From: Zobellia uliginosa
Lineage (GTDB): Bacteria; Bacteroidota; Bacteroidia; Flavobacteriales; Flavobacteriaceae
Direction of reading: 5' to 3'
Assembly (NCBI RefSeq): GCF_900156625.1
Contig: NZ_FTOB01000001.1
Span: 682,001 to 746,000 of the forward strand
DNA length: 64,000 nucleotides
Shown: positions 8,371-26,938 of the stretch, piece after piece
How positions within the stretch are numbered: position 1 is the first letter of the stretch
How the letters are laid out: every line of letters begins with the position of its first letter
Notes under the pieces: generated by a model
Told to the model about the DNA's origin: nothing
The model's database searches: none
What the model saw: the letters and a program-made list of their open reading frames with translations, nothing else
Made by a program: the position numbers and the translations under genes

Positions 8371-8391
8371 TAGTTTAACTTTTCTAAGATT

Positions 8392-9709: not shown

Positions 9710-11517
9710 CGCCCTTGGGTTTTGAGCCAGTCGTTTCTTTGGCGCAATTGTTTTTTTGACGGCTTGCCGCCTTCCTTCTCCATTAACAAAAGCCGGTAAT
9801 CGGGATTTGCCCCTAGAACCACCGTACAACGCTTTTCTGTCCCAAAACGCTCGAAGGTGACCTTTAGGGTGTCGCCGACCTTGAGCTTTTCGATGTAGGC
9901 GCCGAACTGTTGTCCATCGGGAAAGCCGCTCCCGTTGATGTCGGTAATGATATCGCCTTTGTCGAGTCCGGCTTCATAGGCCGGTGTACCGATTTTGGGG
10001 TTCGACCGGATTTCTCCGTGGCCATCGCCATTTAAGGATACTGCGGCCCCAAAATAGGGCGCTTGCGGATTTTGCTTCAACTCTACCCCCACAAGGCTTA
10101 ATAGCGTTGGGTAATCGGGCATTTCGCTCTTGTAGATGTACTTGCCGAAGAATACCTCGGCAAAATCGCTTCCGGCATATTCGGCCAGTGTCTGCCGAAG
10201 GTCCTCTATAGTGTACGGTTTTTCGGTTTTTCCGTATTTCTTCCAAACGAGTTTCATAAAATCGTCGAGGTTGAGTTTTTCCCCGCGAAGCGATAAATCC
10301 AAGGCAAGACCAAGGACACTTCCGTACGAATAATAGGAAATAAAGGTGTTTTCGCGGTTAACGGGGTCTACCGAAGTGGCCGCATCCACAAAGGGGGCTT
10401 GGTAGCTCATCTCGATAGGGTTAAAAAATCGGCGTGCCGGGGAGTTCCATACATAGTTGAAGGTACCTGAAATGCCTTCCACATATTTTTCCGGGGAGAT
10501 AATGCCCGCCCTACAAAGGATCAGGTTGGTGTAATAACTGGTAAAACCTTCGGCAAACCATAGGGCCCCGCTCATATTGGCCTCTTCAAAATTAAAGGGT
10601 TCCAACGATTTCGGGCGGATGCGCTCCACGTTCCACGCATGGAAGAATTCGTGGGAAACGGTACCGATATTAGCTTGCATTCCTCCTTCCGAAAGGCTAC
10701 GGGTACTGGTCAAAACCGTCGAGTTGCGGTGTTCCATACCGTCACCGGAAGCATTTGGGATATAGCAGGCCAGAAAGGTATAGGTACCGTAGTCGAAATC
10801 GGGCAGTTCGCCATAGACCTCTTTTTCCGCAAGCACCACCTTTTTAACCTGTTCAAAATAGGCGTCGAGTTCCTCGTCCGTGCCGTTGTGGTGCAGTACA
10901 AATCGTATGCTCTGCTGCTTTCCGTTATGGTACACTTTAAATTCACGAACGGAATGGTCGCTGATCTCCGTTGGACTATCCATAAAATAATAGAGGTCTG
11001 GGGCGGAATAGGTAGTGCCCGAAACCAAGGGCAATTGTGTGGCTACCTTCCAGTTTAAATCTTCCCGAACCTTAAAATCCACTTCAATTTTTCGATCGCT
11101 CAGTTCGGGGGCATACATGAACGTGGCGGGTATGTTCAAATGGGCATGGGTTTCGTCTACTTGCGAATAGGTTCCTCCTCCGCGGTTGGCAAATAGGGTA
11201 TAGCTAATGGTGATGGAGCCGTCGTGGCCCACCACTTGCCATTGATAGGGATCGGGGCGAAAAACCTCAAGGGCCTGCCCCTTGCTGTCCCATGCCTTAA
11301 AAAGGTATACGTTTTTTGCAAATTCGTGCAAGGCGTAGCGTCCGGGTGAAGTGCGGCTCATACGAAAAGCGACCGTGTCCGTTTTCAATTCCGGAAAAAT
11401 GCCTTTTACGACCGCTTCGTGGTGTACGGCATTCCCAAAGGAAATTTCGTAATGGTTGGTTTGGGCATAGAGAATGCCGGCGCTAATACACAGAAGGAAG
11501 GATAAAGAGAATTTCAT
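9706..11517 (-). CDS. M61-family metallopeptidase (glycyl aminopeptidase-like) with PDZ domain
   Basis: A 603-residue exported peptidase. Signal peptide MKFSLSFLLCISAGILYAQ; the ATG at 11517 is preferred over one 8 codons upstream because it starts the signal. The zinc site is HEFFHAWN (HExxH), with the downstream glutamate in WFAEGFTSYY. A PDZ-like segment follows near residues 500-575 (GTPAYEAGLDKGDIITDING). M61 enzymes cleave N-terminal small residues such as glycine; here likely in the periplasm. It is followed by an overlapping acetyltransferase gene. Confidence 0.9.
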   Translation of the reverse strand: MKFSLSFLLCISAGILYAQTNHYEISFGNAVHHEAVVKGIFPELKTDTVAFRMSRTSPGRYALHEFAKNVYLFKAWDSKGQALEVFRPDPYQWQVVGHDGSITISYTLFANRGGGTYSQVDETHAHLNIPATFMYAPELSDRKIEVDFKVREDLNWKVATQLPLVSGTTYSAPDLYYFMDSPTEISDHSVREFKVYHNGKQQSIRFVLHHNGTDEELDAYFEQVKKVVLAEKEVYGELPDFDYGTYTFLACYIPNASGDGMEHRNSTVLTSTRSLSEGGMQANIGTVSHEFFHAWNVERIRPKSLEPFNFEEANMSGALWFAEGFTSYYTNLILCRAGIISPEKYVEGISGTFNYVWNSPARRFFNPIEMSYQAPFVDAATSVDPVNRENTFISYYSYGSVLGLALDLSLRGEKLNLDDFMKLVWKKYGKTEKPYTIEDLRQTLAEYAGSDFAEVFFGKYIYKSEMPDYPTLLSLVGVELKQNPQAPYFGAAVSLNGDGHGEIRSNPKIGTPAYEAGLDKGDIITDINGSGFPDGQQFGAYIEKLKVGDTLKVTFERFGTEKRCTVVLGANPDYRLLLMEKEGGKPSKKQLRQRNDWLKTQGR

Positions 11518-11647
11518 TAAATCAGGATTGTGGATGTTCAATAGGTTAAAGGTATAATATTCGTCAAAAAAACGGTAGAATAGGGCGAGGAATAGAAAGG
11601 ACCTTGATCCGGATGCGCGCCGTGGTTTTTCTATTCGTTCAAAGATG

Positions 11648-11655
11648 CTACATTT
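11648..11655 (+). promoter_or_regulatory. TAnnTTTG -7 element before bioF
   Basis: TACATTTG matches the Bacteroidota -7 consensus exactly and ends 5 bases before the bioF ATG. Transcription from it would start about at the ATG, giving a leaderless or nearly leaderless mRNA. No TTG was found at the usual -33 spacing. Confidence 0.45.
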
Positions 11656-11660
11656 GGGTT

Positions 11661-12812
11661 ATGGTAGACCTGCCCGAAAAATTAGCGAAAAAGCTAAGCG
11701 ATAGAAATGCTGTTAATGCCTTAAGGAGCTTGCCCGCATCCCATGGTTTGGTCGATTTTTCGTCCAATGATTATTTGGGACTTTCACGGAGCCAATCGGT
11801 TTCTACCGAAGCCTTGCGTCTTATGGAAGGGCATAAGGTCTTGCAAAACGGGGCAACAGGTTCGCGTTTGCTTTCGGGGAACCACCCTCTTTATCAGGCT
11901 TTGGAAACCGAGCTGTGTCAATTTCACCGAGCCGAAGCGGCCTTGGTCTTTAACTCGGGTTACGATTCCAATATCGGCTTTTTTAGTTCGGTGCCCCAAC
12001 GCGGCGATGTTGTTTTTTATGACGAGTACATTCATGCGAGCATTCGCGACGGTATTCGTATGGGCCATGCCAAGAGTTATAAATTTAAACATAACGACCT
12101 CGACGACCTGAACAACAGATGCCGGGTGGAGCGGAGTCGAAATCTCGCCGGCACCGAAATATACGTGGTGACGGAATCGGTTTTTTCCATGGATGGGGAT
12201 GCCCCCGATTTAAATGGTTTAGCGGCCATATGCAAAGCCCAAAATTGCTGTTTGGTGGTCGACGAGGCCCACGCTCTTGGCGTCTTTGGAAGCCATGGGG
12301 AGGGCTTGGTGCAGGCCTCGGACCTGCAAGACAGCGTATTTGCCCGCCTAGTTACCTTCGGGAAAGGTGTGGGCTGCCATGGTGCGGCGATTTTGGGCAG
12401 CGAGGGCCTAAAGTCGTACTTGGTGAATTTTGCCCGTAGTTTTATCTATACGACAGGGCTTCCGCCCCATTCGATAGCTTCCGTACTATCGGCCTATGGC
12501 CATTTGAAGGTGCCCGTCGATGGGTTGGAAAAACTAAAGCATAACATTTCCTATTTCAACCGTAAACAAAGTGATTTGGACCTGAAGGAGCAATTCATCA
12601 TCAGCGATTCCGCCATTCACTGTTGCTTAGTTCCCGGGAACCACAAGGCCCGGAACATGGCCAAGGCCATTCAAGATAAAGGCTTCGATGTTCGTGCGAT
12701 CCTTTCGCCTACCGTTCCGGAGGGGCAAGAGCGATTGCGGATCTGCCTACATAGTTTTAACACCGAAAAAGAGATCGATAATCTACTGGAAGAAGTGGCC
12801 AGCTTATTATAA
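11661..12812 (+). CDS. bioF: 8-amino-7-oxononanoate synthase (BioF)
   Basis: A 383-residue PLP enzyme that condenses pimeloyl thioester with L-alanine in biotin synthesis. Family landmarks: SNDYLGLS near the N-terminus, the GSRLLSGN loop, DEAHALGVFGSHG, and the PLP lysine in TFGKGVG. The ATG at 11661 is chosen over an upstream in-frame ATG because SNDYLGLS then falls at the usual distance. An unusual insertion (CRVERSRNLAG) between the large-domain strands is encoded by a repeat-like sequence at 12126-12145. First gene of the biotin cluster, divergent from the M61 peptidase gene. Confidence 0.92.
   Translation: MVDLPEKLAKKLSDRNAVNALRSLPASHGLVDFSSNDYLGLSRSQSVSTEALRLMEGHKVLQNGATGSRLLSGNHPLYQALETELCQFHRAEAALVFNSGYDSNIGFFSSVPQRGDVVFYDEYIHASIRDGIRMGHAKSYKFKHNDLDDLNNRCRVERSRNLAGTEIYVVTESVFSMDGDAPDLNGLAAICKAQNCCLVVDEAHALGVFGSHGEGLVQASDLQDSVFARLVTFGKGVGCHGAAILGSEGLKSYLVNFARSFIYTTGLPPHSIASVLSAYGHLKVPVDGLEKLKHNISYFNRKQSDLDLKEQFIISDSAIHCCLVPGNHKARNMAKAIQDKGFDVRAILSPTVPEGQERLRICLHSFNTEKEIDNLLEEVASLL
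12126..12145 (+). repeat. Dispersed-repeat-like sequence inside bioF
   Basis: gtggagcggagtcgaaatct is very like the short repeat gtggagcg.agtcgaaa often seen between genes in Bacteroidota. Here it is in frame and encodes VERSRNL within an insertion relative to the usual BioF pattern. Confidence 0.45.
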
Positions 12813-12813
12813 T

Positions 12814-13197
12814 ATGAAAGAGAAGTTTTATACCATTGCCTCCTTTGAATATCCCTCCGACGTTCAAATACTGAAAGGAAAATTAGAGTCCGAGGGCATT
12901 TCTGTTTTTCTCAAGGATGAGCATACCTTAAATTCCGACCCGCTCATCAGCAATGCCATTGGCGGGGTCAAATTGCAGGTGTACACCGAAGATAAAGAGA
13001 AGGCCATTGAAATATATAACGAGGTTAGGGCATATGCCCTAGATGATAATGGGAATTTAGTGGTTTGTCCGAATTGTAAAATGCAAAAATCAGAGGTGTA
13101 TTATAACAGAAAAGGAATTTTATATAAACTTTTCCCTTTTTTTGAAGAAAAAAAATACAAATGCCTACATTGTAACATGATAACAAAACCTCAATAG
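12814..13197 (+). CDS. DUF2007-type protein with C-terminal zinc ribbon
   Basis: A 127-residue protein. Residues 1-75 resemble the DUF2007 (putative signal-transducing) fold: FYTIASFEYPSDVQILKGKLESEGI, then a GGVKLQVYTEDKEKAIEI strand-helix. The C-terminus has two CxxC pairs (CPNCK and CLHCN), a zinc ribbon. It starts 1 base after the bioF stop and ends 1 base before bioD, so it is translated in the biotin operon. Genes of this type often sit beside unrelated operons; a direct biotin role is not evident. Confidence 0.75.
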   Translation: MKEKFYTIASFEYPSDVQILKGKLESEGISVFLKDEHTLNSDPLISNAIGGVKLQVYTEDKEKAIEIYNEVRAYALDDNGNLVVCPNCKMQKSEVYYNRKGILYKLFPFFEEKKYKCLHCNMITKPQ

Positions 13198-13198
13198 C

Positions 13199-13816
13199 AT
13201 GCAGCAAATTTTTGTGACAGGAATATCTACCGAAGTAGGAAAGACCATAGCTTCCGCGATTATTGCCGAAGCCCTTGAAGCGGATTATTGGAAGCCCGTT
13301 CAGGCGGGAGAGCTGGATCATACCGATAGTGACAAGGTGAAGTCTTTGGTTTCAAATGATAAAACGGTCATTCACAAAAGCAGCTATGAATTGAAAACGC
13401 CTATGAGCCCACATGCGGCGGCGGAAAGGGACGGGGTATCCATAGACCGACTTGATATTGTTTTGCCCGAGACGGATAATGCCTTGGTGATCGAAGGAGC
13501 AGGGGGAATTTTGGTTCCTTTGAACGAAAACGACACCGTGCTAGATATCATTATGCCTACCTACCATGTTGTAGTAGTGTCTAGACACTATTTGGGCAGT
13601 ATCAACCACACCTTGTTGACCGTGGGTTGGTTGCAACAAAAGGGATATGATGTCTCCATACTCTTTAGTGGGGATGCCAATCCGGAAACCGAAAATATCA
13701 TCCTGCACAAAACAGGGGCATCCTTGATCGGTCGCATAGATGAGGAGCCTGTTTTTGACAAGGCCGTCGTTAAAAGATACGCCGATAAGTTCGCTTCTAT
13801 TTTAAAAACGCTCTAG
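13199..13816 (+). CDS. bioD: Dethiobiotin synthetase (BioD)
   Basis: A 205-residue ATP-dependent carboxylase closing the ureido ring of 7,8-diaminopelargonate to dethiobiotin. The P-loop is GISTEVGKT right at the N-terminus, followed by the family motifs YWKPVQAG, SPHAAAE and VIEGAGGILVPLNE. Length is normal. Its end lies 6 bases from the convergent glycosyltransferase gene, which marks the 3' end of this bio segment. Confidence 0.93.
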   Translation: MQQIFVTGISTEVGKTIASAIIAEALEADYWKPVQAGELDHTDSDKVKSLVSNDKTVIHKSSYELKTPMSPHAAAERDGVSIDRLDIVLPETDNALVIEGAGGILVPLNENDTVLDIIMPTYHVVVVSRHYLGSINHTLLTVGWLQQKGYDVSILFSGDANPETENIILHKTGASLIGRIDEEPVFDKAVVKRYADKFASILKTL

Positions 13817-13822
13817 GTAGGC

Positions 13823-15448
13823 TCAGTCTATTTTTACCAGGGCCAAATCTACCTTGCTTATGGTGAATTCATACAAGGGTTTGCGCCCTTCTAAATTCTG
13901 CTTGTTGAAAATATAGTAGCCGGGCAACTCACACTGATCTGTATTCATTACGATTGACTTGCGAGACATTTCTAGGTATGATGCCGTTTCGTACAATTTG
14001 AACGGTGTTTGTATGTGGGTCCGTAAATTTTCTTGTGTAAACACGTAAAGGGGAGTTTGGTCCTCGCCAATGATTTTGTAAATATCTTCGGCATAGCTCT
14101 TGTGTGCCGCGCCGGATGAGGTCAAGGCCTTCATGGGCAGGGCCACATGGTCAAAGACCAATCTACAGAGTACGATAAAGGTAATAACAAAAAGGTGTTT
14201 GGTATATCCGATGGTCTTATGGTGAAAAATAAGGGTGAGGATAAGAAGCAGTCCGAAAAGCGGCATGGTGTATTTTAGATGGGGTAAAATGGAAAAATAG
14301 CCCACAAACGGAATGACCAGACAGGCAAGGGCGGCAATGGCCATGATTGCCTTAAAAAGAGTGTGATAGGCCTTGTGTTTCCAGTTGGTTTCTTTCAGCT
14401 GAAGAAACAAAGGGTAGCTCAATACGGTTACTACCATGGGGAAGAACATATAGGTGTACCTGATTCTAGCTCCGGGAGAAACCCAATACACCAAAAAGTT
14501 GGCGATAAAGGCGATGACCAGAAAAACAAGGTAGGGTCGTGCCTTGATGTTTTGTATCTGTTCTTTTTTCCAAATAAACAATAGGAATAGGGTAGAGGGA
14601 AAGATTACGCCCAAGAAATTCAAGGGAAACATGAAAAGATGTTTTATGATTCCCTCAAACCGGTCGCTGAGTAAGGTGCGTTGTTGTGTTAGTCCCCACA
14701 TTTCCGAAATATATCTGCCTAGGTTCTCGTAACTTCCATAGATGTAAAAGTAGAAATAGACCGCCGCCATAGATAAGAGGGCGCAAAAAATATGCGGCCA
14801 AGAGAAAAGTCGCTTGAGGTCTTTTTTATACAACAGGTATGAGCCCAAGGTGATTATTATAAAGGCGAAAGAGGCAAAACCCTTGGTTAAGAAAGCAAGG
14901 GTAATAAAAAAATAGGCAGCACCAAAAAGACGGTAAAACCGCTTCTGTTCGTAAAAATGAAAGATGCTGAATATGCTAAGGGTGACCAGTAAGGAGTAAA
15001 AGATATCGATTTCGGCGGTTACCGAAAAATAGAAATAAAGGTCGGCACAGACCAAGTAATAGAAGGCGCTTAAGATGCCGAATCTGGTGCTAATGTATTT
15101 TCTGCCCATGTAAAAGGATAGAATGCCCGTGAGCAGAAGTGACAATGCCGAGGGAAAACGAAGGGCAAAGGTGTTATAGCCAAAGAGCTTTATGCTTCCG
15201 GCGAGTACAATGTTCCATAATGGTGGGTGGTCGTAAAAGGTTTGGTTTAGAATGGTAGTGACTACAAAGTTGTTGTTCAGCAGCATTTCCAGAGCTACCA
15301 GTGCACGCCGTGGTTCTTCAGAATACAAGGGTGCGAGGTGCAGATTGTAAAAAAGGGATATCGTATAGAGGACAATGATTAAAAACGATAGCCGATATAG
15401 GTTTTTTGTATTGGTCGGGTGTAAAAAACCGACGTCAAAAAATTTCAT
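13823..15448 (-). CDS. GT39/ArnT-like membrane glycosyltransferase
   Basis: A 541-residue integral membrane protein with about 11 helices. The first periplasmic loop carries the acid and Arg/Pro cluster typical of ArnT/PMT enzymes (SEEPRRALVALEML) and, after it, FYDHPPLWNIV, another family hallmark. Such enzymes move a sugar or aminosugar from a polyprenyl-phosphate donor to lipid A or protein on the periplasmic face. It points against the biotin genes and splits bioD from bioA, with no visible functional link to biotin. Acceptor and sugar unknown. Confidence 0.85.
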   Translation of the reverse strand: MKFFDVGFLHPTNTKNLYRLSFLIIVLYTISLFYNLHLAPLYSEEPRRALVALEMLLNNNFVVTTILNQTFYDHPPLWNIVLAGSIKLFGYNTFALRFPSALSLLLTGILSFYMGRKYISTRFGILSAFYYLVCADLYFYFSVTAEIDIFYSLLVTLSIFSIFHFYEQKRFYRLFGAAYFFITLAFLTKGFASFAFIIITLGSYLLYKKDLKRLFSWPHIFCALLSMAAVYFYFYIYGSYENLGRYISEMWGLTQQRTLLSDRFEGIIKHLFMFPLNFLGVIFPSTLFLLFIWKKEQIQNIKARPYLVFLVIAFIANFLVYWVSPGARIRYTYMFFPMVVTVLSYPLFLQLKETNWKHKAYHTLFKAIMAIAALACLVIPFVGYFSILPHLKYTMPLFGLLLILTLIFHHKTIGYTKHLFVITFIVLCRLVFDHVALPMKALTSSGAAHKSYAEDIYKIIGEDQTPLYVFTQENLRTHIQTPFKLYETASYLEMSRKSIVMNTDQCELPGYYIFNKQNLEGRKPLYEFTISKVDLALVKID

Positions 15449-15511
15449 TTTCCTTTGATTTTTCTAGGCTAAAGATCAACAAAATACTTCAAAAAAAATG
15501 TTTTAATTTCC

Positions 15512-15519
15512 CATCTTTG
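15512..15519 (+). promoter_or_regulatory. Possible -7 element before bioA
   Basis: CATCTTTG differs at one base from TAnnTTTG and ends 4 bases before the bioA ATG, the same tight spacing as at bioF. No -33 TTG is seen. Weak on its own; the parallel with bioF is the reason for listing it. Confidence 0.3.
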
Positions 15520-15523
15520 CATT

Positions 15524-16825
15524 ATGAAGAAGGCAAACGGGTCAGAAACCCTAGTAAGGGAAAGTTTATCGCTTAGGGATAAAAAGCATTTATGGCATCC
15601 TTTAACACAGCATAAGTTGCATCCTGACATGTTAGGGATCGTCAAGGCGAAAGGTGCGGTTTTGTACGATGAGGATGGAAGGGAGTATATAGACGGTATC
15701 GCTTCTTGGTATACCAGTGCCTATGGTCATTGTAATACCTATATCACTGACAGGGTCTATGCCCAGATGCAAAAATTAGATCAAGTGGTCTTCAGTGGCT
15801 TTACCCATGAGCCTGCCGTAAAACTGTCGGAAGAGCTGATAAAGTTACTGCCCGAAAACCAAGAAAAGCTTTTCTTTTCCGATAATGGCTCCACAGCTAC
15901 GGAAATCGGTATTAAAATGGCCTTGCAATTCCATTTTAACCAAGGTAGAAAACGCAAGACCCTACTGGCCTTTGAAGAGGGTTTTCATGGGGATACCTTC
16001 GGGGCGATGTCCGTTTCGGGATTATCGGTTTACAACGGTCCCTTCGAGGAGTTTTTTATTGATGTGGAACGAATAGCCGTGCCCACAGATGAAAATATTG
16101 AAGGCATTCTGGCACAATTGGAAGCCAGGTTGCAGCAAAACGACATTGCAGGGTTCATTTACGAGCCTTTGGTGCAAGGTGCCGCGGCCATGAAAATGCA
16201 CAAAGCCGAAAACCTGGACCGGATTTTGGTGCTTTTGAAAAAGCACGGGGTGCTTACGATCGCCGATGAAGTAATGACGGGCTTCGGTAAGACTGGAAAG
16301 GCTTTTGCTTCCGACCATATAACTTCCAAGCCCGATATCATATGTATGTCGAAAGCCTTAACGGCGGGACTGGTGCCTATGGCAATTACAAGTTGTACCC
16401 TAGAGGTGTACAATGCGTTTTATAGTGATGACCTGGCAAAAGGCTTGTTCCACGGGCATACCTATACGGCCAATCCCTTGGCCTGTAAGGCGGCTTTGGC
16501 AGGTTTAGACCTGCTACGGTCACAAGAGATCCAAGACAGTATCAAAAGAATAATCGCCTCACACCAGGACTTCGATCTTAAAATAAAGAATCACCCCAAG
16601 GTGGCCCGTACACGACAGTGCGGAACCATATATGCGTTAGACCTGAACGTGAAAATGGAGCGCTATGGCAATTTACGTGACCAAATTTTCAGGCATTTTA
16701 TGAATAATGGGGTATTTTTGCGGCCTTTGGGTAGTACTGTTTATATTTCTGCTCCATATGTCATTACCGATGCACAGCTACAGAAAATATATGCTACCAT
16801 AGAGGATCTGCTGAACAGTATTTAA
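15524..16825 (+). CDS. bioA: Adenosylmethionine-8-amino-7-oxononanoate aminotransferase (BioA)
   Basis: A 433-residue class-III PLP aminotransferase that converts KAPA to DAPA using S-adenosylmethionine as amino donor. Diagnostic features: LWHPLTQHK at the N-terminus, DGIASWYTSAYGHC, the GSTATEIGIKMALQ cofactor loop, DEVMTGFGKTG with the Asp contacting PLP, and the lysine in SKALTAGLVPMA. The HGHTYTANPLACKAALA stretch near the C-terminus fits BioA. The next gene starts 9 bases after its stop, so they share an mRNA. Confidence 0.94.
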   Translation: MKKANGSETLVRESLSLRDKKHLWHPLTQHKLHPDMLGIVKAKGAVLYDEDGREYIDGIASWYTSAYGHCNTYITDRVYAQMQKLDQVVFSGFTHEPAVKLSEELIKLLPENQEKLFFSDNGSTATEIGIKMALQFHFNQGRKRKTLLAFEEGFHGDTFGAMSVSGLSVYNGPFEEFFIDVERIAVPTDENIEGILAQLEARLQQNDIAGFIYEPLVQGAAAMKMHKAENLDRILVLLKKHGVLTIADEVMTGFGKTGKAFASDHITSKPDIICMSKALTAGLVPMAITSCTLEVYNAFYSDDLAKGLFHGHTYTANPLACKAALAGLDLLRSQEIQDSIKRIIASHQDFDLKIKNHPKVARTRQCGTIYALDLNVKMERYGNLRDQIFRHFMNNGVFLRPLGSTVYISAPYVITDAQLQKIYATIEDLLNSI

Positions 16826-16834
16826 ATCCAAGGC

Positions 16835-18022
16835 TTGAAAGAACGACCGATATCCATTACCGCAATAGGCTCAATTTCCCCATTGGGAAAAACTTCAGGG
16901 GAAACCTGGGCGAGCTACCTTAAAGGCAGCCATCTTTTTGAACAAAAGGATTTTGGTGAAACCAAGGAATGGGCCGCTCCCTTGTCAAAGGACTCAAAAG
17001 AGGAAATAGAACAGCTTAGGAATTCCGACAACAAATACAAAAGCCTTGACGATTCGGTCTTGTTCGCACTTTATGCCTCAAGGGATGCAATTGCCAAAGC
17101 AGGATGGAAGGCGGGCGATGGTTTCGGCGTCAATATCGGTTCATCGCGGGGGGCAACGGCACTCTTTGAAAAATACCATAAAGAATTCCTCGAAAACAAT
17201 AGAACGGCAACACTCTCGTCGCCTACCACCACCTTGGGGAATATTTCGTCTTGGGTGGCACACGACCTAAAGACCAAGGGCCCCGATATTTCCCATTCCA
17301 TTACTTGTTCTACGGCCCTTCATGCCGTTTTAAACGGAGTGGCATGGCTAAGAAGCGGTATGGCCAATAAGTTTTTGGTAGGAGGAAGCGAGGCGCCATT
17401 GACCCCTTTTACCATTGCGCAAATGAAGGCCCTTAAAATTTATTCGCAGTATCGGGAGGAGAAGGCTTCCGAAGGAAATGGGGGCTTCCCTAGTCGAGCC
17501 TTGGATTTTGAAAAGGAAAAAAGTACCATGATCCTCGGTGAGGGGGCTTCTGTAATTTGCATGGAAAAGGGACTGACGGAAAAGACCCTGGCCCTTATCG
17601 AAGGTGTGGGCTACGCTACGGAACCCTTGCGCCATAATATCTCTATTTCTACAGATGCCGAGTGTTTTCAGGCTTCCATGAAAATGGCCTTAGGAAAAAT
17701 TCACCCCGATGAGGTAGATGCCATCGTAATGCATGCCCCGGGTACTGTTAAGGGCGATATATCTGAGTATAAGGCTATTGAAAAAGTATTCTGTAACAAC
17801 TTGCCGTTTTTGACTACAAATAAATGGAAAGTAGGGCATACTTTTGGAGCGTCGGGAGCGTTAAGCATAGAACTGGCGGTCTTGATGTTGCAAGAACAAC
17901 AGCTGATAAAAGTACCATTTGTTACGAATACTTCAGCACCGGGAAAGCTAAGGAAAATACTGGTAAATGCAGTAGGTTTCGGTGGTAATGCGGTTTCCAT
18001 TCTGTTGTCCCGTAAGGTCTAG
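16835..18022 (+). CDS. FabF-like beta-ketoacyl synthase in the biotin operon
   Basis: A 395-residue thiolase-fold condensing enzyme. The nucleophile is Cys158 in ITCSTALHA, the two histidines lie in MHAPGTVKGD and KVGHTFGASGA, matching the Cys-His-His triad of FabF/KAS-II enzymes, although the sequence is otherwise divergent. The start is TTG, the only start that preserves the first strand (ISITAIGSISPLG). It directly follows bioA. No bioC, bioH, bioG or bioZ is visible in the window, so this enzyme may build or extend the pimeloyl chain on ACP. That role is inference; the synthase family assignment is firm. Confidence 0.85.
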   Translation: MKERPISITAIGSISPLGKTSGETWASYLKGSHLFEQKDFGETKEWAAPLSKDSKEEIEQLRNSDNKYKSLDDSVLFALYASRDAIAKAGWKAGDGFGVNIGSSRGATALFEKYHKEFLENNRTATLSSPTTTLGNISSWVAHDLKTKGPDISHSITCSTALHAVLNGVAWLRSGMANKFLVGGSEAPLTPFTIAQMKALKIYSQYREEKASEGNGGFPSRALDFEKEKSTMILGEGASVICMEKGLTEKTLALIEGVGYATEPLRHNISISTDAECFQASMKMALGKIHPDEVDAIVMHAPGTVKGDISEYKAIEKVFCNNLPFLTTNKWKVGHTFGASGALSIELAVLMLQEQQLIKVPFVTNTSAPGKLRKILVNAVGFGGNAVSILLSRKV

Positions 18023-18094
18023 CCTGCTTTTTGAATTCGGTTGAAGTGAGATTATTCTTATCTTTAATCGCCAACCTAAACTTTTTTTTAGCTT

Positions 18095-18673
18095 ATGGAA
18101 CTAGGGTTCGAAATGATGACGTTGTTCGAAAAAATCTACTGGGTCACAGCCATAACGGCATCCATTATTCTCATTGTTTTATTGATAATGACCTTTATCG
18201 GAGGGGAGATAGACGACATCGAGGGCGATGTCGATGTCGAAATTGAGGGCGATACCGGTATAGAATTTCAATTTTTATCCTTTAAAAACCTTGTCGGCTT
18301 TTTTACCATATTCGGATGGTCGGGCATTGCGTGTTTGGATGCCGGAGTAGCAAAAGGCCTTACGGTGGTTATATCTGTCATATGCGGTTTGCTTATGATG
18401 TTGGCCATGGCCTCGCTCTTCTATTATTTAGGCAAATTACAGAGCAGTGGAACCCTAAGACTAAAGAATGCACTGAACCAGATCGGCGAGGTGTATTTGA
18501 CCATTGGGGCCAATCGCAAGAGCATCGGTAAAGTAAGTATCAATGTGCAGGGCACGCTACGTGAATTGGAAGCATTGACCAATGCCGATAAAGACCTGGT
18601 GCAAGGCGATGTGGTCGTCGTAAAGGAAGTGACCGCGAACGGAATTTTAATTGTTGAACCCATAAATAATTAA
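18095..18673 (+). CDS. NfeD-like membrane protein
   Basis: A 192-residue protein with a membrane helix at about 15-37, a short acidic loop (GGEIDDIEGDVDVEIEGD), two more helices at about 68-110, and a C-terminal OB-fold-like domain (IGEVYLTIG ... KVSINVQGTLRELEA ... GDVVVVKEV) of the NfeD type. It is 4 bases upstream of the flotillin gene; NfeD-flotillin pairs are a common membrane-microdomain operon. An ATG six codons in is an alternative start. Confidence 0.8.
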   Translation: MELGFEMMTLFEKIYWVTAITASIILIVLLIMTFIGGEIDDIEGDVDVEIEGDTGIEFQFLSFKNLVGFFTIFGWSGIACLDAGVAKGLTVVISVICGLLMMLAMASLFYYLGKLQSSGTLRLKNALNQIGEVYLTIGANRKSIGKVSINVQGTLRELEALTNADKDLVQGDVVVVKEVTANGILIVEPINN

Positions 18674-18677
18674 CTAA

Positions 18678-20114
18678 ATGCTATCAGTACCCCTACAACT
18701 TGCGGGAAGCGCTTCGTTGCTTGCCATTGGCTTTGCCATTCTTTTCTTTTTTATCATTATCATATCGTTTATCAGACGGTACAAACGCTGTCCTTCCGAC
18801 CGTATCCTTGTGGTTTACGGAAAGGTGGGAGAAGGTAGTTCTGCCAAGTGTATACACGGTGGTGCAGCCTTTATCTGGCCGGTCATCCAAGATTACGAAT
18901 ACTTGGACCTGACCCCTATTTCAATCGAGGTGAACCTAGTAAATGCCTTGAGTAAACAGAATATTAGGGTAAACGTACCTTCCCGTTTTACCATCGGTAT
19001 CTCTACCGAGCCCGGAATCATGCAAAATGCCGCCGAACGTCTTTTAGGTCAGGGTATGCAAGAAGTGCAAGACTTGGCCAAGGAAATCATTTTCGGTCAG
19101 TTGCGTTTGGTAGTGGCTTCAATGGATATTGAGGAAATTAACTCGGATAGGGATAAATTTTTGACCAATATCTCACAGAGTGTAGAATCGGAATTAAAGA
19201 AAGTGGGTCTAAAACTCATTAACGTAAACATTACGGATATTGTTGATGAGTCGGGCTATATAGAAGCATTGGGTAAAGAAGCCGCGGCACACGCCATTAA
19301 CGCGGCAAGAAAATCCGTTGCTGAGAAAAATAGGGACGGTTCCATTGGTGAGGCCAATGCCGTTCAAGATGAGCGTACCCAAGTGGCCGCTGCCAATGCG
19401 CAGGCCGTTGAAGGGGAGAACATTGCGAAAATTAATGTGGCGAATTCAGATTCCTTACGTCGTCAGCGTGAGGCCGAGGCCGAAAGAACTGCGATCGCAG
19501 CGGAAAAAGTACAGGCGGCAAAAGCTTTGGAAGAATCGTATGCTGCTGAAAAAGATGCGGAAATTGCAAGGGCCGAAAGGGTTCGTAGTTCACAAATGGC
19601 CGATATTGTAGTTCCTGCGGAAATCGATAAAAAGAAAGTGGAAATCGCCGCCGAAGCCGAAGCGGAAATGATCCGTAGAAAGGCGAGAGGTGAGGCCGAT
19701 GCGATCCTTTTCAAGGCACAGGCCGAAGCGAAGGGGCTTTTTGAAATATTGACCAAACAGGCACAAGGTTTCGATGAAATCGTAAAAGCGGCAGGTGACA
19801 GTCCTAAAGACGCCGTACTGTTGTTAGTGGCCGACAAGCTTCCTGAATTGGTGAAAACCCAGGCCGAAGCCATCAAGAATATTAAAATAGATAAGGTGAC
19901 CGTATGGGATTCTGGCGCCAAGACGGGTGATGGAAAAGGCTCTACCGCCAACTTCATCTCCGGAATGTACAAGTCCGTTCCGCCTTTACAGGAAATGTTC
20001 AACATGGCCGGAATGCAATTGCCCGACTACTTGAAGGGTAGGGAAGTGGCCGAAGCTGCCAGGGCACAGGAAAACGATGCGACCGAGGTCGATACGGAAT
20101 CCGATAAGGAGTAA
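18678..20114 (+). CDS. floT: Flotillin-like protein (SPFH domain)
   Basis: A 478-residue protein with an N-terminal membrane helix (residues about 10-30), an SPFH/band-7 domain to about residue 200 (RILVVYGKVG, VPSRFTIGISTEPG), then a long alanine/glutamate-rich coiled coil (about 200-360) and a conserved C-terminal region with KLPELVKTQAEAI. Flotillins scaffold detergent-resistant membrane areas. Operon partner is the NfeD protein just upstream. A strong terminator follows. Confidence 0.9.
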   Translation: MLSVPLQLAGSASLLAIGFAILFFFIIIISFIRRYKRCPSDRILVVYGKVGEGSSAKCIHGGAAFIWPVIQDYEYLDLTPISIEVNLVNALSKQNIRVNVPSRFTIGISTEPGIMQNAAERLLGQGMQEVQDLAKEIIFGQLRLVVASMDIEEINSDRDKFLTNISQSVESELKKVGLKLINVNITDIVDESGYIEALGKEAAAHAINAARKSVAEKNRDGSIGEANAVQDERTQVAAANAQAVEGENIAKINVANSDSLRRQREAEAERTAIAAEKVQAAKALEESYAAEKDAEIARAERVRSSQMADIVVPAEIDKKKVEIAAEAEAEMIRRKARGEADAILFKAQAEAKGLFEILTKQAQGFDEIVKAAGDSPKDAVLLLVADKLPELVKTQAEAIKNIKIDKVTVWDSGAKTGDGKGSTANFISGMYKSVPPLQEMFNMAGMQLPDYLKGREVAEAARAQENDATEVDTESDKE

Positions 20115-20137
20115 CGCGATTCTAAATCATAAAGAAC

Positions 20138-20170
20138 AAAGCCCGTGGATTCATTTTCACGGGCTTTTTT
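20138..20170 (+). terminator. Intrinsic terminator after the flotillin gene
   Basis: aaagcccgtg and cacgggcttt form a perfect 10-base stem with a 10-base loop, followed by a run of T. Confidence 0.9.
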
Positions 20171-20200
20171 TGTGGGCTTGGGTATGATTGTTAGGGCGAA

Positions 20201-20233
20201 TTTGGAATATCAATTTTAGAAAGGTTATTTTTG
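20201..20233 (+). promoter_or_regulatory. bioB promoter (TTTG ... TATTTTTG)
   Basis: TTTG at 20201-20204 and TATTTTTG at 20226-20233 are 21 bases apart, matching the Bacteroidota housekeeping promoter (TTTG-N17-23-TAnnTTTG). The predicted start is about 15 bases before the bioB ATG, so bioB is transcribed apart from the upstream operon. Confidence 0.65.
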
Positions 20234-20254
20234 AACCGAGATTTCAATAAGACT

Positions 20255-21349
20255 ATGAGCGAAACAAGACATAACTGGACGAAAGAAGAAATTCTTGAGA
20301 TATACAATAAACCTTTGATGGAGCTGCTTTACGATGCGGCCACCATTCATAGAAAACATCACGATCCGAATACGGTTCAGGTTTCTACCCTACTTTCGAT
20401 AAAGACCGGGGGCTGTCCTGAAGATTGTGGCTATTGTCCGCAAGCGGCCCGCTATCACACCGATATCGAGGGCAACGACCTGATGTCGGTTTCGCATGTA
20501 AAGGCCCAGGCGCTAAGGGCGAAGGCCTCTGGAAGTTCGCGTGTTTGTATGGGGGCGGCTTGGCGTAATGTAAAAGACGGGCCCGAGTTCGATCAGGTCT
20601 TAGAGATGGTTCGCACTATCAACAAGCTTGATATGGAGGTTTGCTGTACCCTAGGTATGCTGACCGAAAACCAGGCACAACGTTTGGCCGAAGCAGGTTT
20701 GTACGCCTATAATCACAACCTGGATACTTCTGAAGATTACTATAAGGATGTAATCTCTACCCGTGCTTTTGAAGATCGGTTAGAGACCATAGATAACGTT
20801 CGCAAGAGCAATGTAACGGTTTGTAGCGGTGGTATCATCGGTATGGGCGAGGCCGTTGAAGACCGTGCCGGAATGTTGGTGGCCTTGGCCAGTTTAAATC
20901 CCCAGCCCGAATCCGTTCCGATCAATGCCTTGGTTGCCGTAGAAGGTACTCCGATGGAGGATATGGAACCCGTTTCTATTTGGGACATGATCCGCATGGT
21001 GGCCACTACCCGTATCGTTATGCCCGAAACACAGGTGCGTTTGTCGGCTGGCCGTACCGAAATGAGCAGGGAAGGACAGGCTATGTGCTTCTTTGCAGGG
21101 GCCAATTCGATTTTTGCGGGGGACAAGTTGTTGACCACTCCGAATCCTGACGTAAACGAAGATATGGAGATGTTCAAAATGCTAGGCCTGAACCCTCAGA
21201 AGCCCTTTACCAAAGTTTCCCAACCCAAGACGGTGGAAGCTGGGGAATCAAAATTGAAGCCCTTGGGCGAGAAGCCCAAATGGAGCCGACCAGGGCATAC
21301 CATAGAGCGTAACGAAGAAGCCAAGGCAAAGAGCAAAGTGGTAGATTAG
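20255..21349 (+). CDS. bioB: Biotin synthase (BioB)
   Basis: A 364-residue radical-SAM enzyme that inserts sulfur into dethiobiotin. The radical-SAM cluster is CPEDCGYC; further BioB motifs are SIKTGGCPE, YNHNLDTSEDYY, CSGGIIGMGE and the conserved arginine region in VRLSAGRTEMS. The ATG at 20255 gives the usual N-terminus (MSETRHNWTKEEIL); an upstream in-frame TTG overlaps the promoter. The last 35 residues (rich in Lys/Glu) extend beyond the conserved core. Separate transcription unit at the end of the biotin region. Confidence 0.95.
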   Translation: MSETRHNWTKEEILEIYNKPLMELLYDAATIHRKHHDPNTVQVSTLLSIKTGGCPEDCGYCPQAARYHTDIEGNDLMSVSHVKAQALRAKASGSSRVCMGAAWRNVKDGPEFDQVLEMVRTINKLDMEVCCTLGMLTENQAQRLAEAGLYAYNHNLDTSEDYYKDVISTRAFEDRLETIDNVRKSNVTVCSGGIIGMGEAVEDRAGMLVALASLNPQPESVPINALVAVEGTPMEDMEPVSIWDMIRMVATTRIVMPETQVRLSAGRTEMSREGQAMCFFAGANSIFAGDKLLTTPNPDVNEDMEMFKMLGLNPQKPFTKVSQPKTVEAGESKLKPLGEKPKWSRPGHTIERNEEAKAKSKVVD

Positions 21350-21425
21350 TCATTTAAATTAATTTTAATAAAATCTTTCCACAACGTTATTTAAATTTGC
21401 CGCTTAAACTGCAATAAAGATTCCA

Positions 21426-22286
21426 TTGAAGTTAACTGCTGTTCCTAGGGTATCTACTATAACCAAGGAAGATTTTTTAGAGCATTATTTTAAGCCGCAG
21501 AAACCTGTGGTGATAGAACGTGCGATAGAAAATTGGCCCGCTTTTGAAAAGTGGAACCTCGATTATATCCGAGAGATCGCGGGAGACAAGGTCGTTCCCT
21601 TGTACGATGATCGGCCCGTAAGCCATAAAGATGGTTTTAACGAGCCCCACGCCCAAATGAAAATGTCGGAATATATAGACTTGCTAAAGGCCGAGCCTAC
21701 CAAGTACCGTATTTTCCTTTGGAATGTACTCAAGGAAGTGCCCCAGTTGCAACAAGACTACCAATTTCCCGATTTCGGATTGAAATTAAAGAAAAAGTTG
21801 CCGATGCTTTTCTTTGGAGGACGGGAATCGTACACCTTCATGCATTACGATATTGATATGTCGAATATCTTTCATTTTCACTTTGAAGGAAAAAAGGAGT
21901 GTATCTTATTTGCGCCATCAGAAACGAAATACCTGTATAAGGTTCCTAATTCGCTTATAGCGCACGAAAGCATAGACTTCTCCGATCCCGATTTAGAAAA
22001 ATGGCCGGCCCTGCGTCATGCCAGTGGTTTTAAGGCGGAACTCAATCACGGGGAGGTACTTTATATGCCCGAAGGGTATTGGCATTATATGAAATATAAA
22101 ACCCCAGGTTTTTCCATGAGCCTAAGATCTTGGCCAAAGAATCCTATAAATTTTGCCGAGGGGCTTTATAATGTTTTCGTAATGCGTAATTTTGACGTTT
22201 TAATGCGAAAGATACGAGGTCAGAAATGGATAGACGGTAAAAATAAAAGGGCGATTGAGCGAACCACCAAGTTAGCAGCTAAATAA
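21426..22286 (+). CDS. Cupin-like (JmjC-type) oxygenase
   Basis: A 286-residue protein of the cupin_8 family. The likely Fe(II) ligands are the HxD of FMHYDIDM and the histidine of GYWHYMKY, spaced as in JmjC/FIH-type 2-oxoglutarate oxygenases. EKWPALRHAS and RIFLWNVL are also family-like. Start is a TTG; no in-frame ATG occurs before residue 77. A TAAATTTG element (21392-21399) lies 26 bases upstream, a possible -7 box. Substrate unknown; relatives hydroxylate amino-acid side chains. Confidence 0.8.
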   Translation: MKLTAVPRVSTITKEDFLEHYFKPQKPVVIERAIENWPAFEKWNLDYIREIAGDKVVPLYDDRPVSHKDGFNEPHAQMKMSEYIDLLKAEPTKYRIFLWNVLKEVPQLQQDYQFPDFGLKLKKKLPMLFFGGRESYTFMHYDIDMSNIFHFHFEGKKECILFAPSETKYLYKVPNSLIAHESIDFSDPDLEKWPALRHASGFKAELNHGEVLYMPEGYWHYMKYKTPGFSMSLRSWPKNPINFAEGLYNVFVMRNFDVLMRKIRGQKWIDGKNKRAIERTTKLAAK

Positions 22287-22324
22287 TTTTTTTTGAATAT
22301 CCTTTTCCTTAAAAAACACTTTAA

Positions 22325-22822
22325 ATGAAATTCTACGTTTTATCCGTTTGTTTACTTCTTACGACTACTTTTATTTCTGCACAGGCTTATGAAGGTAGAG
22401 ATGATCAAAAGTTTCAGGTAGGGGCCAATTTGCAGAATAATGGTACCGGAATAATGGCGTCGTATGACTTTGGTCTGGGCGAAAATATATCCATCGGTGC
22501 AACTTCGACCTATTTGTTGGGTATAGATGAAAGCGTGTCGGCCAGTACTTGGGACCGTTTTGATCTAAAGGCCCGCTTTAGTGCCCACTTGGGGAACATC
22601 ATCGGCCTTAGTGATGAAGTCGATATTTATCCGGGTTTGGATTTGGGACTTAAGAATTTCGGGTTTCACACAGGGGCGCGTTTCTTTTTCTCCGACGGAT
22701 TGGGTATTTATACCGAAATCGGTTTCCCTATAGCAAAGTATAAAATAGAAGATTTGGAACCTGCCGATAAATTCCACAACCAGTTTATGGTGAATATCGG
22801 GGCTGTCTTTAATTTTTTATAG
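22325..22822 (+). CDS. Small outer-membrane beta-barrel protein (DUF6646-like)
   Basis: A 165-residue exported protein. Signal peptide MKFYVLSVCLLLTTTFISAQ, then about eight amphipathic strands (FQVGANLQNNGTGIMASYDFG, NISIGATSTYLLG, FHTGARFFFS) and a C-terminal strand ending in a hydrophobic residue (VNIGAVFNFL), the hallmark of barrel insertion. It resembles the flavobacterial DUF6646 group as I recall it. It follows the oxygenase gene after 38 bases and converges on recX. Confidence 0.7.
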   Translation: MKFYVLSVCLLLTTTFISAQAYEGRDDQKFQVGANLQNNGTGIMASYDFGLGENISIGATSTYLLGIDESVSASTWDRFDLKARFSAHLGNIIGLSDEVDIYPGLDLGLKNFGFHTGARFFFSDGLGIYTEIGFPIAKYKIEDLEPADKFHNQFMVNIGAVFNFL

Positions 22823-22835
22823 GAAGCAGTTGTTG

Positions 22836-23309
22836 CTAGGGTACGAGCTCTTTTAGTTTTTCGTAGACCAAGTGGCTTTCCCATCCCCTGTACAAGAGGT
22901 AGTCTGCCAATTTTTTCTTTCGCTTTTGTGGATTGCGTTCTGAGATCTGTGCCAATCTTTTCTCTGCTAGGGCGTCTAAGGTCTTTTGGTAGTCTTCTGG
23001 GTCTATTTCCTTAAGGGCCGTGGCAATGTTGTATTTTGAGATATTGCGTTGCTTCAGCTCGCTTACAATGCGGTTTCTGCCCCATTTTTTTATGGAAAAC
23101 TTCCCTCGGGCAAAACTTTGGGCAAAGCGTTCTTCGTTCAAAAAATTTTCTTGGATCAAATGCACCACGATTTGGTCGATTGCTTCGGGGATCATGCGCA
23201 TTTCGCGAAGCTTTGCGACCACTTCCTTATGGCAACGGTCTTGATAGGCGCAGTAGCCTTCCAGTTTTCTTTTGGCTTCTTCTATGGAATAAGCGCGTTC
23301 CGTATTCAT
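22836..23309 (-). CDS. recX: RecX-family regulator of RecA
   Basis: A 157-residue basic helical protein with three repeated three-helix modules: CAYQDRCHKEVVAKLREM, LNEERFAQSFARGKFSIKKWGRNRI and KKKLADYLLYRGWESHLVYEKLKEL. The motif (L/F)NEERFAxxFxRxK is diagnostic of RecX, which restrains RecA filaments. Convergent with the small barrel gene; followed on its own strand upstream by RNase G and a terminator. Confidence 0.88.
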   Translation of the reverse strand: MNTERAYSIEEAKRKLEGYCAYQDRCHKEVVAKLREMRMIPEAIDQIVVHLIQENFLNEERFAQSFARGKFSIKKWGRNRIVSELKQRNISKYNIATALKEIDPEDYQKTLDALAEKRLAQISERNPQKRKKKLADYLLYRGWESHLVYEKLKELVP

Positions 23310-23402
23310 GGGGGTATTGGGTTGGATTGACGTATTACTTTACGCGAAAATACACTTTACGCACCAAATGTTGGGGTGGTGATCGTAAAATAGCGGGCAT
23401 AA

Positions 23403-23434
23403 AAAAAGCGACCATCGTTGTCGAAGGTCGCTTT
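23403..23434 (-). terminator. Intrinsic terminator downstream of the RNase G gene
   Basis: On the minus strand aaagcgacc and ggtcgcttt pair around a 12-base loop and are followed by a T run, 8 bases after the RNase G stop. Confidence 0.85.
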
Positions 23435-23441
23435 TAAATTC

Positions 23442-24989
23442 TTAATATATGGTTTTACCGTCTTTATCCTTAAAGCGGTATTCGAGATACGTATACGCAT
23501 CCCTAGGTTGAATTTTAATCCATTTTTTATGCTCTAAGAACCACTTAGAACGTATGGAAGGAAAACCTTTAGTAATATAGGCCGCGATAAACGGATGAAT
23601 GTTAAGTGTAATTCCGTTATCTTTCTTGGGCCCTTTCAACAACTTTTCAAGGTCGGCGTTAATTTTGTCTATCAAGACAATTGGGGCTTCTATTTCTTTG
23701 CCCCCACCATTCGGATTTTCCTCGGTGGTCTTGATGTTCATTTCGGGCCGTACCCGTTGTCTGGTAATCTGTATAAGTCCGAATTTACTCGGAGGCAATA
23801 TTTTGTGCTTGGCCCGATCATCTTTCATCTCATCGCGAAGATGGTCAAAAAGTTTTCTACGGTGTGGCGCTTTTACCATGTCTATAAAGTCGACTACGAT
23901 AATTCCGCCCATATCGCGCAAGCGCAACTGTCTGGCTATTTCTGAAGCTGCCAAAAGGTTGACTTCCAAGGCTGTATCTTCTTGATTCTTGGCCTTGTTC
24001 GAACGGTTACCGCTGTTTACATCTATAACGTGCAATGCTTCGGTATGTTCTATAATGAGGTACGCGCCTTTGCTCATGCTGGCGGTACGGCCAAAAGAAG
24101 TTTTTATCTGCCGCTCGATCCCGTATTTTTCAAAAATAGGAACTGTCGAGTTATACAGTTTTACTATAGATTCCTTTCCAGGTGCAATCTCTAGCACGTA
24201 ATCTTTGATCTGCTCGTAAAGGGTTTCGTCATCTACGTGGATTCCTGTAAAGGAATCATTAAAAACATCCCTAAGGATGGAAGATGCCCTATTGAGCTCG
24301 ACCAACACCTTTGAAGGTGCTTGTGCCTTGTACAATTTTTTACACATTGTCGACCATTTGGCCAACAAGTTTTCTAGGTCTTTGTCTAATTCCGCTACTT
24401 TTTTGCCTTCGGCCACTGTTCTGATAATGACACCGAAACCTTTAGGTTTTATACTTCTTACGAGTCTTTTTAACCTGTCTTTTTCTTCGTTGCTTCCAAT
24501 TTTTTGGGATACGGAAACGCGATCAGAAAAGGGTACCATCACCAAATAACGCCCCGCAATGGAAAGTTCGGAGCTAATTCTGGGTCCTTTGGTAGAAATG
24601 GGTTCTTTAACGATTTGAACCAGTAATGATTGATTTGCTTTAATGACGTCTGTAATAACGCCATTTTTGTCAATGTCTTTTTCGAATGGAAAGTTGGCAA
24701 GTGAGTAATCCTTGATTTTATTGGTACTCACGCCCTTGATGAATTTAAGCATAGTGGCCAATTGTGGCCCGAGGTCATGATAGTGCAAAAAGGCATCTTT
24801 TTCATAACCTACGTTTACAAAGGCAGCGTTCAAACCGGTAACAGGCTTGCGTACCTTTGCCAAGAATATGTCACCAACAGAAAAATTGTTGTTGTCTTCT
24901 TCTTTATGCAATTCAGTGAGCTTTCCATCTTTTAACAGGGCAAAATCGACGGCATCGGAACTAGATCTTACGATTAATTCTCTATTCAC
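23442..24989 (-). CDS. rng: Ribonuclease G/E family endoribonuclease
   Basis: A 515-residue enzyme with an S1-type RNA-binding region at residues about 38-110 (VGDIFLAKVRKPVTGLNAAFVNVG), then an RNase H-like and DNase I-like catalytic part with the metal-binding aspartates in HVIDVNSG and GGIIVVDFIDM. Length without an extended scaffold domain points to RNase G rather than RNase E. Acts in rRNA maturation and mRNA decay. It follows the HU gene and the 29-residue ribosomal-type gene on the same strand, with a terminator between. Confidence 0.92.
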   Translation of the reverse strand: MNRELIVRSSSDAVDFALLKDGKLTELHKEEDNNNFSVGDIFLAKVRKPVTGLNAAFVNVGYEKDAFLHYHDLGPQLATMLKFIKGVSTNKIKDYSLANFPFEKDIDKNGVITDVIKANQSLLVQIVKEPISTKGPRISSELSIAGRYLVMVPFSDRVSVSQKIGSNEEKDRLKRLVRSIKPKGFGVIIRTVAEGKKVAELDKDLENLLAKWSTMCKKLYKAQAPSKVLVELNRASSILRDVFNDSFTGIHVDDETLYEQIKDYVLEIAPGKESIVKLYNSTVPIFEKYGIERQIKTSFGRTASMSKGAYLIIEHTEALHVIDVNSGNRSNKAKNQEDTALEVNLLAASEIARQLRLRDMGGIIVVDFIDMVKAPHRRKLFDHLRDEMKDDRAKHKILPPSKFGLIQITRQRVRPEMNIKTTEENPNGGGKEIEAPIVLIDKINADLEKLLKGPKKDNGITLNIHPFIAAYITKGFPSIRSKWFLEHKKWIKIQPRDAYTYLEYRFKDKDGKTIY

Positions 24990-25143
24990 CTGAATGTATT
25001 TGTATTCGTTCGGCCCCTATATAAAAATAGATATATAGTGTGAACGAATAGATTAAACAATGCTTGAAACGGATTATAAAATCCGCCGAAATTTTCTTAA
25101 ATCTCTATGTCAATGAACGTATGTGATGAAAAAACAAGCAAAG

Positions 25144-25168
25144 GGGCTGAAAATTTTTTCAACCCCTG
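25144..25168 (-). terminator. Intrinsic terminator after the HU / small basic protein genes
   Basis: aggggctgaaaa and ttttcaacccct pair (one mismatch) just after the small gene's stop; the minus strand then reads toward T-rich sequence. Confidence 0.6.
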
Positions 25169-25172
25169 GCAA

Positions 25173-25262
25173 TTATTTTTTCTTGTGTCGGTTAGCTCTC
25201 CTACGCTTCTTGCGTTTATGGGTAGCCACCTTATGTCTTTTTCTTTTTTTACCGCTCGGCAT
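25173..25262 (-). CDS. 29-residue basic ribosome-associated protein (AURKAIP1/COX24-type)
   Basis: A complete 29-codon gene: MPSGKKRKRHKVATHKRKKR followed by RRANRHKKK. It is almost entirely Lys/Arg/His, like the AURKAIP1/COX24 (mS38) motif proteins annotated in Bacteroidota, a family related to mitochondrial small-subunit protein mS38. It lies 25 bases after the HU gene on the same strand and ahead of a terminator. The composition rules out a chance frame. A structural ribosomal role is inferred from the family. Confidence 0.75.
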   Translation of the reverse strand: MPSGKKRKRHKVATHKRKKRRRANRHKKK

Positions 25263-25287
25263 AAAATTCTACTTTTAGTTAGTATAT

Positions 25288-25578: not shown

Positions 25579-25616
25579 CTTTCGTGTTAAATTTTCAGTA
25601 TAATTTTTTTGGGATG

Positions 25617-26907: not shown

Positions 26908-26938
26908 TAGATTCATATTGCAAAAAAAAAGGAAGATT

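Follow-up and report, generated by a model that had tools for sequence, protein, structure and literature searches.

Only a few routes are known for the C7 diacid of biotin, and the DNA analysed here, a 64-kb stretch from Zobellia uliginosa (the window), raises the question of where the pimeloyl thioester for BioF comes from. The window has bioF, bioD, bioA and bioB, and directly 3' of bioA it has a ketosynthase (KS) gene, here called bio-KS (biotin-linked ketosynthase). In the region 8000-28000 eight products were family-scanned and the other ORFs were listed, and the rest of the window was covered by genome-wide searches. No known pimeloyl gene was found among the eight products, in agreement with an earlier sequence-only reading of this DNA. 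That reading regarded the KS as the best local candidate for the pimeloyl source, and this is now supported by its neighbourhood in relatives, its co-occurrence with BioA, its exchange of operon slot with the enzyme BioE and an invariant arginine at the acyl gate. A role of the KS in building the biotin chain of many marine flavobacteria, with no need for the customary helper genes, is a strong genome-based prediction. We consider it likely that this is a biotin-dedicated ketosynthase, which would provide the pimeloyl thioester for BioF by condensing a primer with a free omega-carboxylate and malonyl-ACP.

The features of the locus are collected in Table 1. The KS gene starts 9 bases past the bioA stop on the same strand, which confirms a FabF-superfamily synthase gene directly 3' of bioA. 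In the window, as well as in two other Zobellia loci (L113, L114), TTG is the sole start codon from the upstream in-frame stop to the conserved N-terminus, and this start may hold the KS level down. In 38 of 81 loci (the window and L113-L192) the vicinity of the KS start likewise had TTG codons only. The statement that the gene is translated with bioA did not stand as an observation: the bioA-KS gap ranges from 8 to 2542 bases among 78 named relatives, which thus share no fixed coupling. The closest named KS was that of Zobellia amurskyensis (87%).

Table 1. Features of the biotin locus and codons of the KS active site, as positions in the window
Feature	Position	Strand	Remark
bioF	11604..12812	+	TIGR00858 334.8 bits, under cut-off 426.45, yet top-scoring family
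small DUF2007-like gene	12808..13197	+	bioF/bioD interval; start uncertain, ORF opens 12688
bioD	13199..13816	+	TIGR00347 116.4 bits, cut-off 83.3
bioA	15524..16825	+	TIGR00508 527.9 bits, cut-off 405
bio-KS	16835..18022	+	TTG start, 395 aa
Arg105 codon	17147..17149	+	place of FabF Ile108 (acyl-pocket gate), by alignment
Cys158 codon	17306..17308	+	nucleophile; C in 100/100
Met197 codon	17423..17425	+	place of FabF gate Phe202, by alignment
His300 codon	17732..17734	+	catalytic; H in 100/100; HAPGT replaces HGTST
Lys330-His335 codons (KWKVGH)	17822..17839	+	active-site Lys and His, by alignment
two genes, KS-to-bioB interval	18095..20114	+	192-aa membrane-type protein, then second gene
terminator-like hairpin	20138..20167	+	12 pairs and T tail; between the presumed flotillin-like gene and bioB
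bioB	20231..21349	+	TIGR00433 405.6 bits, cut-off 225
Cupin_8 gene (PF13621)	21426-22286		3' of bioB; in 52/80 named loci

The small gene between bioF and bioD gave sub-cut-off matches to NF040569 (E 1.9e-4) and PF09413 (E 3.9e-5), and a homologue was found in 57 of the 80 named loci described below. The two genes between the KS and bioB encode proteins which we take to be NfeD-like and flotillin-like, and the first of them, with 192 aa, had no Pfam or NCBIfam match. The membrane-type gene was found in 30 and the flotillin-like gene in 32 of the 80 named loci. Terminator-like sites in the region numbered 11 against 11.8 expected in shuffles, and the hairpin in Table 1 has the most pairs among them. 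Promoter and terminator counts in the region were at chance level, and a look for repeats around the start of bioF and that of bioA gave nothing clear.

The KS matched both ketoacyl-synthase domains above their cut-offs (N-terminal PF00109, 80.8 bits; C-terminal PF02801, 56.5 bits). Against the FabF family TIGR03150 it scored 145.1 bits with a cut-off of 493.75, which is below the membership score, so it is divergent from FabF, as had been noticed from the sequence alone. Against KAS III (PF08545) it reached 19.9 bits, under the cut-off of 24, which means that it is not FabH-like. The AlphaFold2 model, built with 45 sequences (pLDDT 88.9, pTM 0.92), matched FabF structures best in Foldseek (best E 3.0e-30), and superposed on 2rjt_A with a Z of 53.1 and an rmsd of 2.2 over 378 residues (VIA-align). 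The predicted fold and the alignment together show the KAS I/II fold with a Cys-His-His triad and the Lys. Residues 129-134 of the model had pLDDT <50, and therefore the pocket floor is uncertain.

In a maximum likelihood tree of 33 rows, the 27 bio-KS split from six other KSs with support 100/100. Given a long-branch warning and the few control KSs, a single origin of the bio-KS is likely rather than proven. In the plasmid collection 35 records matched the KS, and the 15 listed were all <30% identical. One of the records, CP125156.1, is listed as a Klebsiella plasmid; at 5.37 Mb it is chromosome-sized and probably mislabelled.

The active site was compared between 100 bio-KS (the window, 80 named ones and 19 from the survey alignment A2) and 15 control KS (five from the same genome, one by the bio operon in L112 and nine from plasmid-collection records; the match L023, with E 0.017, was excluded). 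The triad reported by the sequence-only reading is complete: Cys158, His300 and His335 are invariant in all 100 bio-KS, and they are joined by Lys330, which is kept in 100/100 by the careful alignment and 99/100 by the quicker one. Arg105 is also kept in all 100, and none of the 15 other KS has a basic residue there; the position is taken by I, V, S, T, G, L, F or M. By HMMER, Arg105 aligns to the Ile of the GSGIGG motif in Listeria and Bacillus FabF; this Ile was equated with Ile108 by counting the chain offset, and the position of Arg105 is that of a sequence alignment. Published work on FabF (PMC7138838) assigns the gating of the acyl pocket to Ile108 and Phe202. The position of Phe202 is taken by Met197, with M in 92, I in 5 and F in 3 of the 100 bio-KS, whereas 13 of the 15 others have F and two have W. 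The hydrophobic acyl gate of FabF is thus not present in bio-KS by alignment.

Further positions distinguish the group. Pro302 occurs in 100/100 bio-KS where all 15 other KS have Thr, and Ser129, Pro130, Thr132, Thr133, Phe192, Gln196 (99/100) and Trp331 are additional marks. The replacement of HGTST by HAPGT, together with Gln196 and Trp331, shows that the Arg is not the only change in the active site.

From ketosynthase chemistry the following reaction is proposed. A free-acid primer would be loaded on Cys158, and Arg105, in place of the gate residue Ile108, would hold the carboxylate of this primer, while malonyl-ACP would be decarboxylated at His300/His335. In the last turn, glutaryl-S-Cys158 and malonyl-ACP would give 3-oxopimeloyl-ACP and CO2. 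The 3-oxo-diacyl-ACP would then pass through FabG, FabZ and FabI, the housekeeping reductases and dehydratase, to become pimeloyl-ACP. The C5 primer may come from malonyl units through the same KS (C3 to C5 to C7), which would be the BioC route without the methyl ester, or lysine breakdown may supply it, as in the BioZ route, and the KS would make only the last turn. As a rule, elongating-type ketosynthases use ACP-bound primers, and since the KS is of this type, its primer is more probably bound to ACP than to CoA.

The distribution was surveyed in 345 Bacteroidia genomes, with the same set in each search. The KS was found in 23/345 with one query sequence at E 1e-40, a search in which distant members may be missed. 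BioE was found in 17, BioC above cut-off in 6, BioA in 186 (E 1e-90) and BioB in 191 (E 1e-60). All 23 KS genomes had BioA and BioB and none had BioC or BioE, and the KS, BioE and over-cut-off BioC genomes showed zero overlap (P 0.039 for KS against BioE/BioC, ignoring kinship). A sub-cut-off BioC match of 92.7 bits was present in one of the BioE genomes (G280). The KS was absent from all 159 BioA-less genomes, and the association of KS and BioA had a Fisher P of 3.5e-7, uncorrected for kinship.

The BioE profile was built from the biotin operons of KS-less genomes (L074, L075, L076, L091, L092). The five BioE share invariant E26, E53, H56, E125, E155 and H158 (L076 numbering), and the same six positions are the diiron ligands published for Elizabethkingia BioE (PMC12915131). 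Among the 17 genomes, nine have BioE directly 3' of bioA (G114, G135, G201, G213, G231, G262, G280, G288, G302), with one stop codon inside the match in G201 and also in that of G302; four have it at the operon head (G021, G294, G040, G076) and four have it unlinked to bioA (G048, G203, G235, G344). The order in L091 and L092 is bioB-bioF-bioD-bioA-bioE. The same slot is filled by the KS in tight bioB-bioF-bioD-bioA-KS rows (L053 of family f39, L055 of f58, L057 and L061 of f29), and two families contain both types, f6 (G328 with KS, G262 with BioE) and f58 (G109 with KS, G201 with BioE). Because the KS trades places in one operon with an enzyme reported to make the pimeloyl group, it most likely does the same job as BioE.

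A MocR-type gene was seen by the bio genes in four BioE genomes (L074, L075, L076, L079), with GntR and aminotransferase domains in L074. It fits the published BioL, and in L077 it is beside bioB, although the genome (G256) gave no BioE match.

The exchange with BioE bears on the best of the other explanations, in which the KS would serve biotin by loading, editing or handing over a pimeloyl or glutaryl group, and the chain itself would come from an unlinked route. Such a route may exist, because 140 of the 186 BioA genomes have neither KS nor BioE nor over-cut-off BioC at these thresholds, and the changes beyond the Arg (HAPGT, Gln196, Trp331) would also suit a transfer function. But all the bio-KS retain the Cys, both His and the Lys expected of a condensing enzyme, and the enzyme in the same slot of sister genomes is the reported maker of the whole pimeloyl group. 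We therefore think that a transfer role is unlikely. The 140 genomes also mean that a missing known gene is weak evidence by itself, so the operon slot and Arg105 carry the weight for a condensing, biotin-dedicated KS. Some of these genomes may harbour distant, unlinked KSs below the detection at E 1e-40.

In 20 such loci, hand-picked with bioA close to bioB, BLAST found no bio-KS, BioE or BioC; one of them, L112, has an ordinary KS about 3 kb from bioA. Nine of the 20 (L095, L100, L101, L102, L104, L107, L110, L111, L112; alignment A3) have between bioB and bioF a conserved protein of about 240 aa with a signal peptide and a beta-barrel-like appearance. We considered it as a further pimeloyl enzyme and rejected it because of the signal peptide and the barrel-like look by inspection; two members had no Pfam or NCBIfam match. 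Perhaps it is an outer-membrane channel for a biotin precursor. A genome of the window's family (G101, locus L073) has bioB but yielded neither a bioA match (E 1e-90) nor a KS.

The neighbourhood of the KS, whose conservation had been named as a check by the sequence-only reading, was conserved. Of the 23 class-survey genomes with the KS, the window included, 19 have it adjoining a bio gene: it is 3' of bioA on the same strand in 16 (in one of them, G272 at L047, an opposite-strand ORF intervenes between bioA and the KS), beside bioF in two (G149, G284) and beside bioB in one (G165). The other four (G260, G138, G225, G179; L058, L063, L064, L065) have the KS without an adjoining bio gene. Among 80 named loci found by the KS, with titles mostly of Flavobacteriaceae or its genera, bioA is upstream on the same strand in 78, so the arrangement is not chance; the stretch of the other two contains no bioA. 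BioF and BioD are present in 78 and BioB in 70 of these loci, and BioE and BioC were not found in any of the 80 at E 1e-8.

These data bear on whether the KS could be an ordinary FabF/FabB paralogue, or a ketosynthase of another pathway, with no biotin role despite its operon. The FabF fold (Z 53.1) and the four genomes without an adjoining bio gene would agree with this. Against it, of the 10 family labels with a KS, 8 show the linkage to bio genes (it is unlinked in f66 and f70), the KS is present only together with BioA, and it forms its own clade. In the part of the class sample that belongs to the window's own family, f1, the KS was found in 8/8 BioA genomes and in 0/3 BioA-less ones (P 0.006). 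A bystander KS is accordingly very unlikely.

The whole genome (G000, 5.30 Mb, 27 contigs, completeness 100) was searched for BioC, BioW, BioE and KAS III. The sequence-only reading would have been refuted by a bioC-bioH pair elsewhere together with the lack of a biotin phenotype; the BioC part of this was searched and not found, with 12 weak matches of which the best had 53.9 bits against a cut-off of 184.95. This best candidate is MenG/UbiE (TIGR01934, 261 bits against a cut-off of 158), and the remaining 11 matches were all at or below 41.8 bits. BioW (PF03744) was not found in the genome at E 10 in a search that did detect the B. subtilis control, and BioE was not found at E 1e-5 with the profile that matched in the class sample. 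KAS III (PF08545) gave seven matches, and the two proteins checked (L193, L194) both pass the FabH family TIGR00747. No bio gene was seen by eye in the short stretches around these two, and one of the fabH genes sits in an apparent rpmF-fabH-accB row, also judged by eye. The two were for these reasons set aside as BioZ, although they could still have BioZ activity. A conventional route elsewhere, be it BioC plus an esterase, BioI or a FabH of the BioZ type, with the KS merely boosting the flux, is very unlikely and the least probable explanation. The seven PF08545 matches speak for it; against it speak the failure to find BioC, BioW and BioE and the lack of bio genes in the short stretches around the two checked FabH genes.

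In a profile search of the window's family, the KS was found in 76 of 134 genomes and 75 of 133 genera, and the named relatives suggest that this family, f1, is Flavobacteriaceae. The BioE profile found 0/134 in the same family, while BioE has been reported in Flavobacteriaceae (PMC12915131); family labels or sampling may differ between the two. Taking biotin-dedicated condensation by the KS as the preferred reading, we lean towards a further pimeloyl route in which one ketosynthase of KAS II type, its acyl pocket lined by Arg, would use free dicarboxylate primers and the ordinary fatty-acid machinery with no methyl ester. This route would be present in more than half of the family's sampled genera (75/133) and scattered in other Bacteroidia. 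If true, the invariant Arg at its acyl gate would let a KAS II accept the carboxylate charge directly, the pathway would be assigned for a large part of flavobacteria, and one-residue predictions would follow.

A 2024 review counts three pathways (PMC11089781), and PMC10102598 discusses the BioC route as a way to hide the charged carboxylate from hydrophobic fatty-acid enzymes. Among the open-licence PMC matches listed, we recognised no description of a flavobacterial KS in biotin synthesis, which is no proof of absence, and PMC9909488 and PMC9859067 had no bearing on it.

Compared with FabF (KAS II), the bio-KS has the same fold and Cys-His-His-Lys, and differs by its low family score (145 against 494), by Arg and Met for Ile108 and Phe202, and by HAPGT for HGTST. 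BioE, the diiron oxygenase of Elizabethkingia and Chlamydia (PMC12915131), is like the bio-KS in its slot 3' of bioA and the same presumed product. It is an unrelated protein, and it cleaves long acyl chains oxidatively, whereas the KS would build up from short units.

BioZ of Agrobacterium is a biotin ketosynthase which replaces BioC-BioH and relies on the fatty-acid enzymes of the cell (PMC7645780, PMC8024396). Like the bio-KS, it is encoded alongside bio genes where BioC is missing. In BioZ, Arg147 together with Ser84 and Ser287 has been put forward to neutralise the free carboxylate of the glutaryl primer (PMC8024396). The two differ in that BioZ is a KAS III (FabH-like) which takes glutaryl-CoA, while the bio-KS is a KAS II (FabF-like) that has its Arg at the position of FabF residue 108 and is expected to take an ACP-bound primer. 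With Arg105 in the KAS II branch and Arg147 of BioZ in the FabH branch, two ketosynthase branches would have reached the same answer to the charge, as far as the alignments tell.

The sequence-only reading had seen the KS as a different solution from the FabH-like BioZ. This stands for the KAS II type and not for its being without parallel, since a FabF-type precedent is on record in Desulfovibrio vulgaris, whose genome lacks bioC and bioH and whose bio cluster includes DVU2563, a KAS annotated as FabF (PMC10102598). The Desulfovibrio biotin-cluster genes are needed for growth without biotin, and this type of cluster is reported from anaerobes of a few phyla (PMC10102598). The two KSs are here likened by gene description and context. 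The DVU2563 cluster brings its own ACP, FabZ-like and reductase genes, while the bio-KS is alone with bioA, bioB, bioD and bioF: no such genes were found among the eight window products or in the four tight rows L053, L055, L057 and L061, where ORFs of at least 90 aa were listed and an ACP under 90 aa would be invisible. The Bacteroidia KS is thus a one-gene version, in another phylum, of the Desulfovibrio-type FabF precedent.
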